Source: a virus. From it: a stretch of 41,964 nt of DNA. The notes below the pieces were generated by a model that did no database searches, had not been told where the DNA came from, and saw nothing but the letters and a program-made list of their open reading frames with translations. The stretch is taken from IMG/VR virus record IMGVR_UViG_3300034156_000013, positions 1 through 41,964 of that record; one strand, 5' to 3'. Position 1 is the stretch's first letter, and every line of letters begins with the position of its first letter. This document shows positions 9,161-39,693 of this stretch, one piece after another. The position numbers and the translations under genes are program-made.

Positions 9161-9406
9161 ATGATGTACTTTGTGAGTGTACTTGTTAGTTTCTGTGCGG
9201 TAGCTATCAAAGGGTTTCAGCATAAGAACGTGGCGGGTATGCACTACCGCTTGACATTCTTCACATCGTACATCATGGCGGTGTTTGACGTTGCAGTGGT
9301 GGGCATCATAGTAAAAGGTGGCTGGTCTATTGCCCTCACGGCTGGGCTGGGTGCCAGTTGCGGTATGGTGTTTGCTATGTGGTTCCACGACAGAGTAATC
9401 AAATAG
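9161..9406 (+). CDS. Membrane protein, 81 aa
   Basis: Three hydrophobic stretches (about residues 2-16, 33-51 and 55-73) with a basic loop (KGFQHKNVAGMHYR) predict a multi-span inner-membrane protein. It sits between the early genes and primase. The function is unknown; topology alone does not distinguish a host-takeover membrane factor from a holin-like protein. Confidence 0.75.
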   Translation: MMYFVSVLVSFCAVAIKGFQHKNVAGMHYRLTFFTSYIMAVFDVAVVGIIVKGGWSIALTAGLGASCGMVFAMWFHDRVIK

Positions 9407-15542: not shown

Positions 15543-16513
15543 TGGATCTTGGGGCAGCGATTGCTGCGGCTGCGGCTGGCTCTGCCCCGTTCATCATCAA
15601 GAATCGTCCGTTCCTGCCAGATCGGACGGTCCTTATCGACGGTGACTATCTCGTCTACACCACTGCGGGAAACGACGAGACACCGATTGGTGATGCACGG
15701 CGCAGGCTGATGCAGAAGATCAGTGACTTCAAAGACATGTCCGGCTGCGAGCATGCGGTGCTACACCTCACCGCTACTGGTGGGCACAAGGGCTACCGCT
15801 ACTTGATAGCCAAGGAGGCACCGTACCAAGGCCAGCGAGAAGGTTCACGCAGACCCAAAAACTGGGCGCTGTTGCGAGACTTCGTTGAGTCGTACAAAGG
15901 CCCTGCCTTCAAGCAAAAGATTTGGGGCAGCCGCGAGGCAGATGACGGTATCAACTATCACCTGCTGGTGCTGCTGGCTATGGGCCGTGAGGCCACGGTG
16001 GCTATGAAGGACAAGGACAGCCAGATGTTCACGGGCTGCACTCACTTGGACTGGAACACCTACGAGCTGACGCAGGTTCCGCTGCACACCTACGAGATGG
16101 AGAACAGCGTGGGCCTGATCTATGGGCACAAGTGGTTCTGGCTCCAGATGCTGATGGGCGACGACGCGGATAAAATACCCGGCGTCAAGCTGATACGTAG
16201 CGGTGTGTCCGGTAAGCTGATCAAGTGCGGGCCGGGCCGGGCCAAGGATGTACTCTGCATGTCCACGGACAATGTTGATGCGCAGATGACCGTGGTCAAG
16301 TGCTACATCCAAAGCTATCAAGAGCGCTGGGCCGATGTGTTCGTTGAGCAGGCAGCACTGCTGTGGATGCGTGAAGACAAGGACGGTACTGTTCTAGACT
16401 TTATGAAGATCATGCAGCCAGATGGCTTTGGTTACTCAGAGATACGTGAAGCGGCACTGCGGCTCGATGCCCGTGTACGCAAGGAGGTAGAAGATGCAGC
16501 GGCTTACGGCTAG
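15542..16513 (+). CDS. 5'-3' exonuclease (T7 gp6-like, FEN/PIN fold)
   Basis: Would remove primers and degrade host DNA. Acidic metal-binding residues are in family positions: D33 in VLIDGDYLVY, E132/D134/D135 in SREADDGINYH, D154/D156-type residues in MKDKDSQMF, and MGDDADKIPG followed by the helix-hairpin-helix-like segment VKLIRSG. Length (323) is close to T7 gp6. It starts in the TAATG junction with the upstream gene. Its 3' end overlaps endonuclease VII by 20 nt. Confidence 0.92.
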   Translation: MDLGAAIAAAAAGSAPFIIKNRPFLPDRTVLIDGDYLVYTTAGNDETPIGDARRRLMQKISDFKDMSGCEHAVLHLTATGGHKGYRYLIAKEAPYQGQREGSRRPKNWALLRDFVESYKGPAFKQKIWGSREADDGINYHLLVLLAMGREATVAMKDKDSQMFTGCTHLDWNTYELTQVPLHTYEMENSVGLIYGHKWFWLQMLMGDDADKIPGVKLIRSGVSGKLIKCGPGRAKDVLCMSTDNVDAQMTVVKCYIQSYQERWADVFVEQAALLWMREDKDGTVLDFMKIMQPDGFGYSEIREAALRLDARVRKEVEDAAAYG

Positions 16514-16874
16514 CGGTATCGCACCATATCGCCAGCAGTTGCTGGCAAACAAACAAGGAGGCCGCTGTGCTCTCTGTAATCGCCGGCCTGCTGTCCCTTG
16601 CCTCGATCATTGTCATAGCACTGGCGTTGTTCGAGGGGTTCTGTGTCGGGGTTGTAATGCCCTGCTGGGCAAGATCGAGAACAACGCTCCGCGTAATGGT
16701 TTGCGCGGCTCGGACCTACACACGTACCTGATGAAAATCCCAGCTTACCTGATTGCTGGTGAGCGCGGTGGGTGCGGTATCTTACACAACACTTGGAAGA
16801 CTGAGGACGAGAAGCGCCTAGCGCGTAACGCCAAAGCAGTCAAGACAAGAGCAGCAAAGAAGGTGACTAAGTAA
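16494..16874 (+). CDS. Recombination endonuclease VII
   Basis: Resolves branched DNA before packaging. Zinc ligands C25, C28, C51 and C54 (CALC...CRGC), the catalytic LDHCH motif (D38, H39, H41) and N55 match T4 gp49-type His-Me finger nucleases. Length 126 is typical. The C-terminus is Lys-rich. It overlaps the exonuclease gene by 20 nt and joins the next gene by TAATG. Confidence 0.93.
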   Translation: MQRLTASGIAPYRQQLLANKQGGRCALCNRRPAVPCLDHCHSTGVVRGVLCRGCNALLGKIENNAPRNGLRGSDLHTYLMKIPAYLIAGERGGCGILHNTWKTEDEKRLARNAKAVKTRAAKKVTK

Positions 16875-25802: not shown

Positions 25803-26789
25803 ATGTCTCGTGATACTTTTAACGTAACTCGCCCGAACTCCAAACTGGGCGGCGCTGATAAGTTTGAATTGGTGCTGGAGGAATTCGCCGGTATCGTCGA
25901 GGAGTCGATGGTTACTCGTTCCGTCACCGAAGGCTGGATCGAGATGCGCACCGTCAAGGGCACCGCGACCGTCACCAAGGACGCAATCGGTGAATCGACC
26001 CTGCAAGTGCTGGTGCCCGGCGTAACGCCGAACGGCACTGAGAACCAGTTCTCCGATAACTCGGTTACTGTGAAGACCGTGGTACTGGCCCGCTCGACTC
26101 TGCCGCTGCTGGATGTGTTCCAGACTAAGTACGATGTTCGCAAGAAGATCGGTAACGAGCACGGCAAGAAAATGGCGAAGTTCAAAGACGCCTGCTTGCT
26201 GGTGCAGATGACCAAGGCCGGTCTCGCCGCTACTTCCAAGTACGGCGCACTGCCGGGCCACTTCGGCGGTACTCAGATCACTCTGAGCGCTGCTGGCGAC
26301 GAGAACGATCCAGCCAAGCTGTACAAGGCGATCAACCGTCTGTGCGCTGGCATGGAAGAGAAGGACGTTATCCCACAGGAAGACGGCCACGCTCTGTTCT
26401 GCCGCCCTTCGGTTTACTACAGCCTGTTTGAAGCTGAGCAGATTGTTAACGGTGACTACATCACCTCCGAAGGCAACAGCATCAGCGGTGTACCGGTCCT
26501 GAAAGCACTGGGCGTTCCGATCATCAAGTCGAACAACATGCCGCACACCAACACCGTTACCACTCCAGACGACACCGTTACCCTGATGGGCGGCGACTAC
26601 GCTGGCGACTTCTCGAAAGTCCTGATGGTACTGGCCTCTCCGGCTGCACTGTTGGCTGGTGAGACTATCAGCCTGACCACCGATGTGTTCTACGACAAGG
26701 TTTCTAAGTCGTGGTACGTCGATGCTCACATGGCGTTCGCTGCAACTACCGACCGTCACGAACACGCCGGTGTAATTCTGGCTAAGTAA
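25803..26789 (+). CDS. Major capsid protein, gp10-like
   Basis: Forms the icosahedral head (HK97 fold in this phage group). 328 residues, similar to T7 gp10A (345). Codon use is the most uniformly C-ending in the window, as for a very highly expressed gene. It has its own promoter, 5' stem-loop, an AAGGAG ribosome site and a terminator just downstream. The C-terminal region (ETISLTTDVFYDKVSKSWYVDAHMAF) is typical of podophage capsids. No gp10B-type frameshift extension is seen before the terminator. Confidence 0.95.
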   Translation: MSRDTFNVTRPNSKLGGADKFELVLEEFAGIVEESMVTRSVTEGWIEMRTVKGTATVTKDAIGESTLQVLVPGVTPNGTENQFSDNSVTVKTVVLARSTLPLLDVFQTKYDVRKKIGNEHGKKMAKFKDACLLVQMTKAGLAATSKYGALPGHFGGTQITLSAAGDENDPAKLYKAINRLCAGMEEKDVIPQEDGHALFCRPSVYYSLFEAEQIVNGDYITSEGNSISGVPVLKALGVPIIKSNNMPHTNTVTTPDDTVTLMGGDYAGDFSKVLMVLASPAALLAGETISLTTDVFYDKVSKSWYVDAHMAFAATTDRHEHAGVILAK

Positions 26790-33023: not shown

Positions 33024-36000
33024 ATGGACAACATGGATACACGCCCGGCTGATATTCGGGCACAGGTAGAGCAGCAAAAGACGGATCGCCAAGTAGGCCG
33101 CATCCTCGATAAGCCTGCGCCAACTCCAACCGAGAAGGTAGCAGTCAACAACGCAGTAACCGCGACCATGTTTGCCGCGCAGCTCACTGGCGCCCCTGAG
33201 CGGGATGCGGCAGCTGCCGGTGTGGCAGTGCGTGCGGCAGGTATCGCAGCACCAGAGGAGAGCGTGAACGCGCTCACAGCCGCCTTGCCGGGTAACTCCC
33301 AGCTGGTAGATGTGGCCGCTGGCTTGAACAAGTCGCTGAGCCAGTTGGACGAGAAAGCCGCGAAGGCGCAGGTGACAGGGTTTGGCGATCAGTTGGCCGC
33401 AGGGTTCTCTGAGATGACCGCCATCCCGGCCCTGCTGCGCCGTCTGGAGCGCCCTACCGTCACGGCTGACCCTACCTTCGACTACATGTCGATCAGGGAC
33501 AAGGCCGAGGCTAACCGCCCCGAGGAGGACCGTAAGTGGCTGCGCGAGAGCGAGTCAGAAGCGGACCTGAACCAGCGCATTCTGGAGCTGAAAGCCAAGG
33601 ACGAACGACTGGCTACCCTCGGCGCACACGGCACCACAATGGCCGTGGCTGCTGGCCTTACTGGTGGCTTCGTTGACCCGGTTGGCTGGGTTGCTACACT
33701 GGGCGTAGGTAAGGTTGCGCAGATGGCCGGTATCGGCGCCCGTGTGGCTATGCTGGAGGGCCAGCTGGGCAAGTCTGTGGCGTATGGCGCACTTGAGGGT
33801 GCTGCCGGTAACGTGCTGACTGAGGCCGCACTGGACGCCGCTGGCGGGCACGTGACCTTCTCCGACTACGTTACTGCCGCTGGCATGGGCACTGTGTTCG
33901 GCCAGATGCACTTGCTGTCGGGTCGCCCGAAGACTGAGCAGGCCGCACCGGATAGTCCGGCACCGCGACGCACCGACATGGAGACGGGCGCAGACTACAC
34001 ACTTAAAGACGGTACACCGGTAGTTGCCACGCGTACGCAGAACGAGTACGGTGAGATTGACATTACACTGCATACGCCAGACGGTGTGAAAGTAGGTGAA
34101 GTCAATGGATCGGCGGCCGAACACGGGGTTAACTTCCCACAGCCGCATGTAGAGGAGGGCTACCGCCGTCGAGGTGCGAACACCCTGATGTACGACCTGC
34201 TGGACGAGACTGGCGGGTATACAGGTACTCGGGACAACACCGCCTCGGCACGCACTAGCGATGGCATTGCTTTCTGGAACACGTATGAGAAGGGGCAGTC
34301 CAAAGCGTGGCGGGACGGCACCCCTGTGGGGCCGCGTACTCCAAAGGAGGCTGCGGAGGACATCAACGCCAAGGCAGCACAGCAGAACATGGATCTGTAC
34401 ACACAGGCGCAAGCCCGTGCAGGTGCTGACGCTACGCCGGAAGACATCCGGGTAGAGGCAGACAACATCATGCGTGAGCAAGCTGACTCAGTCAACCGGA
34501 TCGCGTTCTCCGAGGTTCCCGAGCAGGACCGCATGATGCCGCTGTTCGATCTGGAGGTCCGTGAGGACGGCACTGTACCTTCGCTGGACGAGGTGATGCA
34601 GACGCCCGAGGTGCGTACCAAGGTGAGCGACCGCTGGGGCATCAACATGCACACGGTAGAGGACGGCACAGAGCGCAAGATGATGGCAGAGACGGCAGCA
34701 CGTGCCGAGGGCTGGGATCGAGCGAACCCGGTTGACCCGGAACGCATCAACTCCATCCTTGCACGGACCCCATGGCTGGCATCTAGCGGCCTGCTGCTGG
34801 CTAAGAGCGAGAACCCGGTAGCGCGTATGATCGCAGGCGTACTGCTTGAATCGTCTACTGGTGCAACAGGACGCCGCCGTACAGCGGCAATCACTAAGAC
34901 AATGCGGGAGCGTGTGTACCTTGAAGACTTGGTTGGCTATGAAGAATCTTACAAGCAATGGCGAAAGCAAAATGGTGGTTCGGGCTACCGTGATGTTATT
35001 GGCAGTGACCACCGTTCTCGTTTCGATAGACTGGTTGCGGCTGACCGCGAAAATCGACGACTTGGCGTTGCAGGCTCTAATGATGTCAGTGTTCGTAGAG
35101 CTGGTGACCATCTCGATTCTGGCTACGACCGCATGCGTCGTGATCAACAGACCGTGGGAACCATTGGCGCGGCGCGCTTGGGTGATACTTCTGTTGGGTA
35201 TGCACACCGTTCTCTTTCTGCATCATGGGTGATGAATGCTAAGCCCCAAGAAATTGAAGCGCTTAGCAGGAAGCTCGCGGAGCAGCTGTCAGTTGGATGG
35301 GATGACGTGCAGTTCGCTCGCCAGATTGCAACTCGCTACGTGGAAAGAGCCCGTAGCTCGGCCTTCGGTAGTGCTGCTGTACCAGCCAACCTTGCATCGC
35401 CAGAAGCTGCTAGTGTCCTCCGGGATGTCCTGCGCAGTCTGTCTGTCGGAGAGCAGGAAATTGAGCGCGCAATGGGCCGCTTTAGTCGCGGTGGGGCTAG
35501 TCACACAAAGAAACGTCTCGACCTCGATCTATCAGAGAACGTCGAGCTACCAGATGGCTCTAGCTTCCCAATGATGAACGCCTTTGAGACTGACCAAGCC
35601 AGCATGTACATGCAGTATGCTCGCCGGGTATCCGGTGACGTGGCACTGACTCAGTACGGCGTGATGGGCGATCAGGGTATGAAGGTGTTGCGCAAGACTA
35701 TGGAGTTCGGGCCTAACGGCAAGAAAGCCACAGCCGACGAGATGCGCGCCTTTGACCAGATCGCAGCCGAGTTCTATGGCCGTCCACTGGATGGTACGGG
35801 TAACAAGTACCTCGGCAACCTGCGTATGCTGACCGCCGCTAGCCGCCTAGGTGGTATGGCGTTCACTCAGTTCGCAGAGATTGCTAACAGCGTGTCCCTG
35901 CTCGGTGTCAACGGTGCATTGAAGCAGGTAGCTGCATTGCCTCGCCTCATTGCTGACGTGCATGCTGGGCGCCCTAGCGAACTGCTCAAGTCTATCGAGC

Positions 36001-36944
36001 AGATCGGCGGGCCGCTGGGCCAAGACAGCCGGGTAGTGTTCCCGTTCCAAGAGCCGGGCGACGTCAAGGTCTATGGCCGTGATTCGCTCAATGCCTTCGA
36101 CCGTATGGTACGGGCTGGCTCTAACGCGCTGCCATGGCTGTCCGGCTGGCACCACATGCACGCTGCACAGGTGCGTGGGATCAGCGAGCAGATCGTACAC
36201 AAGGCGTTCCGCTACATCAACCAAGGTGAGGAGAGCAGCGCACTGGTATCCATGGGCATTGGCCCGGACTTGGTTAGCCGCTTGCGTGCTGACATGCCAA
36301 ACATCGCTACATTCAACCCTGATGGCACGCTGGCCTCGCTGAACCTGACGAAAGCCACCGACCACGGCGCAGCAGCTGAGCTGGTGCAGGCGATTCACCG
36401 TGGCGGCAAGCAGATCGTACAGGGCACCTACATCGGAGAGACTGGCCGATGGGCGCACAGCGATCTGATGCGTATGCTGGTACAGTTCCGCTCATTCTCC
36501 ATCGTTGCTATGGAAAAGCAGTGGACTCGCCAGCGTGTGGACGAAGGCACCGCTAAGGCATTCGGCATCCTCATGGGCCAGATGGCATTCGCTCTGCCAA
36601 TCCACCTCAGCCGTGTAGCAATCAACGGCGCAACCCGCGAAGACAAGGAGCAATACTTCGAGACTCAGCTGCAACCGGCTATGCTGGCCCGCGCTGTGCT
36701 GAACTACACGTCAATCTCCGGCCTGTCCGGCGACGTGTTGGATGCAGGCTTCGCTGTTATGGGCGGCGAGGCTAGTGGCGTGCGTTCCGGTAGCAGCTCT
36801 GCGTTGGGTAACATCCCGGCACTTGGCTACATCGAGTCCGGCGCCAAGGTCATCAAGGAGAAGGACGCACGGGAAGCTATCCGTATGCTGCCCGGTGGCA
36901 ATCTGCCCTTCATCACACCGGTGCTCAATCACCTTACGGATTAA
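33024..36944 (+). CDS. Large internal virion protein, gp16-like, 1306 aa
   Basis: Size and position match T7 gp16 (1318 aa), the ejected protein that helps pull DNA into the cell. Ala-rich N-terminal region, a hydrophobic Gly-rich stretch (about residues 205-300, GTTMAVAAGLTGGFVDPVGW), then an unusual segment (about 319-435) with HVEEGYRRRGANTLMYDLL resembling GNAT motif A, and a long helical C-terminal half. I see no transglycosylase motif at the N-terminus, unlike T7. Between about 34880 and 35570 codon use shifts to T- and A-ending codons. An out-of-frame ORF is nested at 34939-35232. The stop TAA overlaps the next phage promoter. Confidence 0.92.
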   Translation: MDNMDTRPADIRAQVEQQKTDRQVGRILDKPAPTPTEKVAVNNAVTATMFAAQLTGAPERDAAAAGVAVRAAGIAAPEESVNALTAALPGNSQLVDVAAGLNKSLSQLDEKAAKAQVTGFGDQLAAGFSEMTAIPALLRRLERPTVTADPTFDYMSIRDKAEANRPEEDRKWLRESESEADLNQRILELKAKDERLATLGAHGTTMAVAAGLTGGFVDPVGWVATLGVGKVAQMAGIGARVAMLEGQLGKSVAYGALEGAAGNVLTEAALDAAGGHVTFSDYVTAAGMGTVFGQMHLLSGRPKTEQAAPDSPAPRRTDMETGADYTLKDGTPVVATRTQNEYGEIDITLHTPDGVKVGEVNGSAAEHGVNFPQPHVEEGYRRRGANTLMYDLLDETGGYTGTRDNTASARTSDGIAFWNTYEKGQSKAWRDGTPVGPRTPKEAAEDINAKAAQQNMDLYTQAQARAGADATPEDIRVEADNIMREQADSVNRIAFSEVPEQDRMMPLFDLEVREDGTVPSLDEVMQTPEVRTKVSDRWGINMHTVEDGTERKMMAETAARAEGWDRANPVDPERINSILARTPWLASSGLLLAKSENPVARMIAGVLLESSTGATGRRRTAAITKTMRERVYLEDLVGYEESYKQWRKQNGGSGYRDVIGSDHRSRFDRLVAADRENRRLGVAGSNDVSVRRAGDHLDSGYDRMRRDQQTVGTIGAARLGDTSVGYAHRSLSASWVMNAKPQEIEALSRKLAEQLSVGWDDVQFARQIATRYVERARSSAFGSAAVPANLASPEAASVLRDVLRSLSVGEQEIERAMGRFSRGGASHTKKRLDLDLSENVELPDGSSFPMMNAFETDQASMYMQYARRVSGDVALTQYGVMGDQGMKVLRKTMEFGPNGKKATADEMRAFDQIAAEFYGRPLDGTGNKYLGNLRMLTAASRLGGMAFTQFAEIANSVSLLGVNGALKQVAALPRLIADVHAGRPSELLKSIEQIGGPLGQDSRVVFPFQEPGDVKVYGRDSLNAFDRMVRAGSNALPWLSGWHHMHAAQVRGISEQIVHKAFRYINQGEESSALVSMGIGPDLVSRLRADMPNIATFNPDGTLASLNLTKATDHGAAAELVQAIHRGGKQIVQGTYIGETGRWAHSDLMRMLVQFRSFSIVAMEKQWTRQRVDEGTAKAFGILMGQMAFALPIHLSRVAINGATREDKEQYFETQLQPAMLARAVLNYTSISGLSGDVLDAGFAVMGGEASGVRSGSSSALGNIPALGYIESGAKVIKEKDAREAIRMLPGGNLPFITPVLNHLTD
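34939..35232 (+). CDS. Candidate nested membrane (holin-like) protein, 97 aa
   Basis: It lies wholly inside the gp16-like gene, in the frame shifted by +1. Three clean hydrophobic segments (about residues 14-30, 42-69 and 80-94) are separated by charged turns (RLTAKIDD; NRPWEPLARR), a class I holin-like topology. Alternative starts are ATG 34972 and ATG 34993. No good Shine-Dalgarno precedes any of them, which is the main argument against. The enclosing frame here favours T in third positions, which is exactly what makes the nested frame hydrophobic: this may reflect selection on the nested gene or a mosaic segment with chance effects. A 57-aa holin candidate exists elsewhere (39520), so this could be a second holin, an antiholin or an exclusion protein. 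Confidence 0.4.
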   Translation: MKNLTSNGESKMVVRATVMLLAVTTVLVSIDWLRLTAKIDDLALQALMMSVFVELVTISILATTACVVINRPWEPLARRAWVILLLGMHTVLFLHHG

Positions 36945-39519: not shown

Positions 39520-39693
39520 ATGGATAAGTCCACCAACTTGCAGACTGCTATGGTAGCTCTGCAAGCGTGGGCTGTTGGGCTGTCAAGCTGGTTCATCTCC
39601 GCACTGCCAACGGTAGTGCTGGTGATGTCCGCTACATTGACCGGCTTACAGCTCTACGTTTTCATGCGTGACAAACTTACTAAAAAGGATTAA
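39520..39693 (+). CDS. Holin candidate (T7 gp17.5-like), 57 aa
   Basis: MDKSTNLQTAMVALQAWAVG..., with one strongly hydrophobic region (about residues 13-48, interrupted by Ser/Thr) and a basic tail (MRDKLTKKD). AAGGAG lies upstream of ATG 39520. Size, position between tail fibre and small terminase, and the charged C-terminus match gp17.5 of T7, the class II holin. It could form one or two membrane helices. With a SAR-like endolysin elsewhere, it might act as a pinholin; this is inferred. Confidence 0.75.
   Translation: MDKSTNLQTAMVALQAWAVGLSSWFISALPTVVLVMSATLTGLQLYVFMRDKLTKKD

Follow-up and report, generated by a model that had tools for sequence, protein, structure and literature searches.

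A candidate membrane protein gene overprinted within the gp16-like virion gene of a T7-like podovirus

A stretch in the middle of the gp16-like internal virion protein gene of a T7-like phage is, judging from its sequence, probably an overprinted protein-coding gene for a small membrane protein. The window, i.e. the whole stretch of DNA analysed, comprises the 41,964 bases of a virus record and has the gene content of a T7-like podovirus; among named phages it is closest to Pseudomonas phage VSW-3 (Napahaivirus). The relatives compared were VSW-3 and five IMG/VR contigs (L005, L006, L009, L010 and L046); L046 is a fragment, and the L005 and L009 contigs are incomplete genomes. The whole gp16 gene is present in six phages, namely the window, VSW-3, L005, L006, L009 and L010, and the gp16 of the other five is 67-75% identical to that of the window at the amino-acid level. 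Luutsna-1 and Providencia phage PSTNGR1 (45-49% identity) were used as outgroups. The region is colinear in every relative, which rules out an insertion into gp16, and synonymous identity between pairs of gp16 genes fluctuates along the gene as in a recombining mosaic. The features at the middle site of gp16 in the window are as follows.

33024..36944, + strand: gp16-like internal virion protein gene, the enclosing frame, 1306 aa (phrog_342, E 3.4e-207; colinear with VSW-3 gp26)
34905..34910, + strand: Shine-Dalgarno-like CGGGAG, 10 nt before TTG 34921 (duplex -10.3 kcal/mol, reached at 0.2% of random positions; p 0.055 against the synonymous null)
34921..35232, + strand: nested +1-frame ORF from the proposed start TTG 34921, 103 aa (start position the same in VSW-3 and L009)
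34939..35232, + strand: shorter form of the nested ORF from ATG 34939, as first annotated, 97 aa (ATG common to L005 and L006, with GGAGG upstream there and none in the window)
34968..35159, + strand: core of the third-position patch (rich in T, poor in purines), gp16 residues 649-712 (fourfold sites, five carriers pooled)
34972..35022, + strand: hydrophobic segment 1, residues 18-34 of the 103-aa product (17-residue window scan)
35095..35145, + strand: hydrophobic segment 2, residues 59-75 (same scan)
35176..35226, + strand: hydrophobic segment 3, residues 86-102; weaker than the other two and missing in VSW-3 and L005 (same scan)

Translation of the ORF confirmed the first-pass annotation of 34939-35232 as an open +1 frame of 97 aa with a hydrophobic pattern. 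The frame stays open upstream of 34939, and the in-frame TTG at 34921 lengthens the product to 103 residues. Segments were called with a 17-residue window and a cut-off of 1.3, or more strictly with 19 residues and 1.6; the 103-aa form has three segments by the first call, two of which pass the second. At the middle site the +1 frame is open over 71-103 codons in five of the six clade members (the window, VSW-3, L005, L006 and L009). The three-helix topology of a class I holin, which had been proposed for the product, is not conserved: three segments are found in the window, L009 and L006, only two in VSW-3, where the ORF terminates early after segment 2, and in L005, and the frame of L010 contains four stops. 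The nested products of the relatives are 29-43% identical to that of the window. At both gp16 sites described here the products are short and have two or three hydrophobic segments behind a basic N-terminus.

The gp16 codons over the nested ORF had been described as rich in T at the third position, and the counts bear this out: third-position T is 0.44 at residues 640-737, rising to 0.52 in the core, whereas elsewhere it is 0.19. When genes were scanned across the genome, the highest value over 50 codons was 0.56 in the window, at the nested site (runner-up 0.46), and 0.60 in VSW-3, at the same site (runner-up 0.42). Third-position T at residues 656-705 is 0.46-0.58 in the window, VSW-3, L005, L006 and L009 (rest of the gene, 0.16-0.22) and only 0.14-0.16 in L010 and the outgroups. 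In a gene-by-gene scan the strongest T-over-C window always fell within gp16 (six of six genomes); five genomes have it at the middle site, and L010 has it at the C-terminal site. At the fourfold sites of the middle site, with codon family controlled and the five carriers pooled, T is 2.00 times its expectation (z +7.5), G 0.61 times (z -3.4), A 0.60 times (z -2.4) and C 0.81 times (z -2.0); L009 is the weakest carrier at these sites taken alone (T 1.29 times, z +1.1). The corresponding factors at the C-terminal site are T 2.52, G 0.37, A 0.52 and C 0.87. The third position of a gp16 codon is the second position of a codon in the +1 frame, where T specifies Phe, Leu, Ile, Met or Val, and a rise in T with a fall in purines therefore matches the needs of a membrane protein at its second codon positions. 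The doubling of T and the depletion of purines at fourfold sites suggest that codon choice in gp16 is constrained by a second frame; another cause of the preference for T is less likely.

Were there no nested gene, something else, e.g. local mutation bias or slow translation aiding folding, would have to favour T-ending codons, leaving the open hydrophobic +1 frame as a by-product. We regard this as unlikely. It is favoured by the T-rich segment extending beyond the nested stop in the window, L006 and L009, for which the coding reading does not account; in VSW-3 the nested stop at gp16 residue 704 lies close to the end of the T-rich segment (706). However, an AT bias would raise A, yet A falls, and a C-to-T bias should not touch purines, yet G and A both fall, such that neither bias predicts the loss of both purines. 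RNA structure and Rfam searches gave no signal, and comparable T patches are missing from the outgroup and distant gp16 genes, both of which argue against T-ending codons being favoured in this way. Directly after the nested stop, where the T-rich codon use continues, the window has a 112-aa +1 ORF (35236-35574) in which the ORF scan found no hydrophobic segment. A milder T-rich stretch (z 2.7-4.2), with no hydrophobic +1 frame, is also present in the DNA ligase gene of several relatives (VSW-3, i.e. L008, near 10653; homologues in L006, L009 and L010).

Synonymous variation in gp16 had been predicted to be reduced over the nested ORF, and no such reduction was seen. Third-base identity in the patch, measured at codons with conserved amino acids, is 0.30-0.53, no higher than elsewhere, and lies near the expectation for independent draws, i.e. 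the synonymous sites are saturated. Saturation makes the test of reduced synonymous change uninformative or mildly negative, and to that extent it favours the absence of a nested gene. Saturation also implies that the T-richness of the patch must be upheld in each lineage and not simply inherited. The proposal of an overprinted membrane protein gene is supported in part: five of the six phages keep an open, hydrophobic frame and T-rich codons despite saturation, but the expected drop of synonymous change is missing. Synonymous resampling of the gp16 gene of the window at its own codon usage gave two segments in 2.5% of trials and a mean hydropathy as high in 0.05%; for the five carriers, resampled at the codon usage of the gene, p for mean hydropathy was 0.0105 or less. 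Shuffling codons within the patch yielded mostly open and equally hydrophobic frames, as would be expected if the open frame were a by-product. The hydrophobic pattern is thus carried by the T-rich codons and is not independent evidence. The independent evidence is the start signals, the co-occurrence of patch and ORF, and the rarity of such ORFs elsewhere.

A second nested ORF is found near the gp16 C-terminus of VSW-3, L006, L009 and L010; it is likewise in the +1 frame and encodes 68-69 aa, of which the N-terminus is basic and two segments are hydrophobic. In VSW-3 (NC_041885.1) the nested ORFs start at 25969 and 27697 and would encode products of 71 aa and 68 aa. L046, which was reached solely via its gp16 C-terminal protein sequence, serves as an out-of-sample carrier and has an ORF of 68 aa at the identical place, with GAGAGG upstream of ATG.

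VSW-3 (L008):27697-27903, L009:9281-9487, L010:9338-9544 and L006:9569-9778: C-terminal nested +1-frame ORFs
L046, near the end of gene 3-881: C-terminal nested +1-frame ORF
36624..36851, + strand of the window: place of the second nested ORF of the relatives, gp16 residues 1201-1276 (T patch and start codon absent)

Both the window and L005 are without the T patch and the start codon at this site. T patch and ORF co-occur at both gp16 sites, and at the C-terminal site the patch and the start-bearing ORF are gained or lost jointly. Each of the six phages with a whole gp16 gene has one or both nested ORFs. The C-terminal ORF of the relatives is in several respects better supported than the ORF of the window, and this second site strengthens the overprinting reading.

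The start signals differ between the two sites and among the phages. The earlier statement that there is no clear Shine-Dalgarno site is correct for ATG 34939 but not for the in-frame TTG 34921, since CGGGAG lies 10 nt upstream of this TTG in the window, VSW-3 and L009. Its duplex energy of -10.3 kcal/mol compares with a median of -6.0 for annotated VSW-3 genes. In L005 and L006, GGAGG (duplex -9.3) is found 12 nt before an ATG at the start first annotated, and the position of the start at the middle site thus differs among relatives (TTG in three, ATG in two). Against the synonymous null, the start regions of the five middle-site carriers have p values of 0.055, 0.057, 0.067, 0.26 and 0.40. 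The start signals at the site in the window would thus lend the ORF moderate support. At the C-terminal site the signals are AAGGAG then ATG in VSW-3, GGAGGG then ATG in L009, GGGAGAGAG then GTG in L010 and AAGGGAAG then GTG in L006, with p values of 0.077 (VSW-3), 0.002 (L009), 0.014 (L010) and 0.124 (L006). These start codons with their Shine-Dalgarno-like sites track the patch, which is a further argument against codon preference without a nested gene. A start codon with a Shine-Dalgarno-like site occurs in nine of nine ORFs of the long genes, the weakest being the C-terminal one of L006. Where an Arg codon forms the C-terminal Shine-Dalgarno-like site, which is the case in four carriers, it is always the rare AGR, and the corresponding codon of non-carriers and outgroups is CGN; AGR makes up 3-6% of Arg codons in the complete gp16 genes and 4 of 20 in the L046 fragment.

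The +1 frame might also be reached by ribosomal frameshifting, which would join the N-terminal part of gp16 to a hydrophobic tail. The differing start codons of carriers at the middle site speak for this, but a +1-frame stop lies just upstream of the ORF in L005 and L006 and stops closely precede the C-terminal ORF of VSW-3, so that any frameshift would be confined to a few codons. A known +1 slippery motif was not seen there by inspection, and frameshifting is considered very improbable. Under the overprinting reading, ribosomes would instead start internally on the gp16 mRNA, at TTG 34921 in the window, and produce a protein of 103 aa, basic at its N-terminus, which would insert into the host inner membrane. 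Five relatives would make a second protein of like kind (68-69 aa, two segments) from near the gp16 C-terminus. Whether the clade repeatedly gains and loses small +1-frame membrane genes at two places in gp16, with each phage keeping at least one and gp16 acting as a source of lysis or exclusion proteins much as rep does in leviviruses, is in our judgement evenly balanced.

The function of such a protein has to be considered together with the other lysis genes of the window.

341-826: endolysin (PF00959)
811-1128: Rz
992-1213: Rz1
9161-9406: holin-like ORF, 81 aa, three hydrophobic segments (phrog_7045)
39520-39693: 57-aa ORF at the T7-like holin position, one hydrophobic segment (kept in four relatives)

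The ORF at 9161-9406 belongs to the early/replication region and has no tblastn match in the fetched relatives. The one at 39520-39693, without a family match, immediately precedes the small terminase gene, a position at which a holin is annotated in related phages. With endolysin, Rz, Rz1 and other holin candidates present, the nested proteins are not needed as a sole holin. They may be holins or antiholins. If the gene is real, its product may tentatively be viewed as an antiholin or auxiliary holin that acts at the membrane to modulate lysis timing; superinfection exclusion is a second guess, only slightly less favoured. The nested genes could be real and yet serve superinfection exclusion or another envelope function and not lysis, which is somewhat unlikely. 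The separate full lysis set (endolysin, Rz, Rz1, the phrog_7045 holin-like ORF and the one-segment ORF at the T7-like holin position) and the overlapping genes with exclusion activity in a Pseudomonas phage (PMC9936078) would fit such a role, but fast sequence drift with kept hydrophobicity suits lysis proteins too.

The existence of overprinted membrane genes is accepted for very small phages, whose genomes have little room. Gene E of phiX174, overprinted out of frame on the structural-assembly gene D, encodes a membrane protein of approximately 90 aa. It resembles the nested ORF as a small membrane protein overprinted in a structural gene; however, phiX174 is a ssDNA phage with E as its sole lysis protein, and the likeness is one of architecture. 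Class I holins such as lambda S are about 100 aa long with at most three segments, as in the window, L006 and L009, whereas VSW-3 and L005 have two segments, there is no holin-family match and the nested ORF does not adjoin the endolysin. Leviviruses offer the nearest precedent with their embedded lysis genes. These single-gene lysis (sgl) genes encode small proteins with a membrane segment, sit within the largest genes, for the most part in the +1 frame of rep, sometimes number two per genome, and are recognised by a Shine-Dalgarno site and a transmembrane segment (PMC7693330). The gp16-nested ORFs are alike in their +1 embedding, Shine-Dalgarno-like site and membrane segment, the features by which sgl genes are recognised (PMC7693330). 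Leviviruses differ in having three to four genes on ssRNA and an embedded gene that is the lysis gene, whereas the phage studied here has approximately 42 kb of dsDNA with its own endolysin and spanins, and any part of its nested ORF in lysis is hypothetical. The olg1 and olg2 genes of Pseudomonas phage Fc02, for which exclusion activity was demonstrated, are likewise small overlapping genes of a Pseudomonas phage but lie in the regulatory region of a temperate phage (PMC9936078). If the overprinting reading is true, new membrane genes would arise within the structural genes of ordinary 40-kb T7-like phages, vary in presence and absence, and be overlooked by annotation. The third-position signature (T up, purines down) can be used despite saturated synonymous sites and may offer a scanning tool.

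Searches with the nested product in phage records and in a product-based scan of viral contigs found no match, two scans of bacterial genomes found no relative, and the nested products have no credible match in Pfam or PHROG, holin families included; a weak match to phrog_2203 (E 0.007) was not believed. AlphaFold2 models of the nested products contain long helices only (pTM 0.31-0.32). The VSW-3 record annotates no nested genes, and no report of nested genes in Autographiviridae or T7-like phages was found in open-licence papers. These genomes contain, across 55,681 host codons, eight sense-frame (+1/+2) shadow ORFs with at least two hydrophobic segments, and all eight fall at the two gp16 sites. 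Among 33 more distant gp16 genes, the last few genes being left out, only L041 and L064 have a two-segment shadow ORF. A third candidate, inside the endonuclease VII-like gene (16494-16874), was rejected, being broken by stops or non-hydrophobic in VSW-3, L010 and L005. In the window it is a 54-aa +1 ORF (16567-16731) whose single hydrophobic segment is strong; there, too, third-position T is raised, and L006 has a similar stretch.
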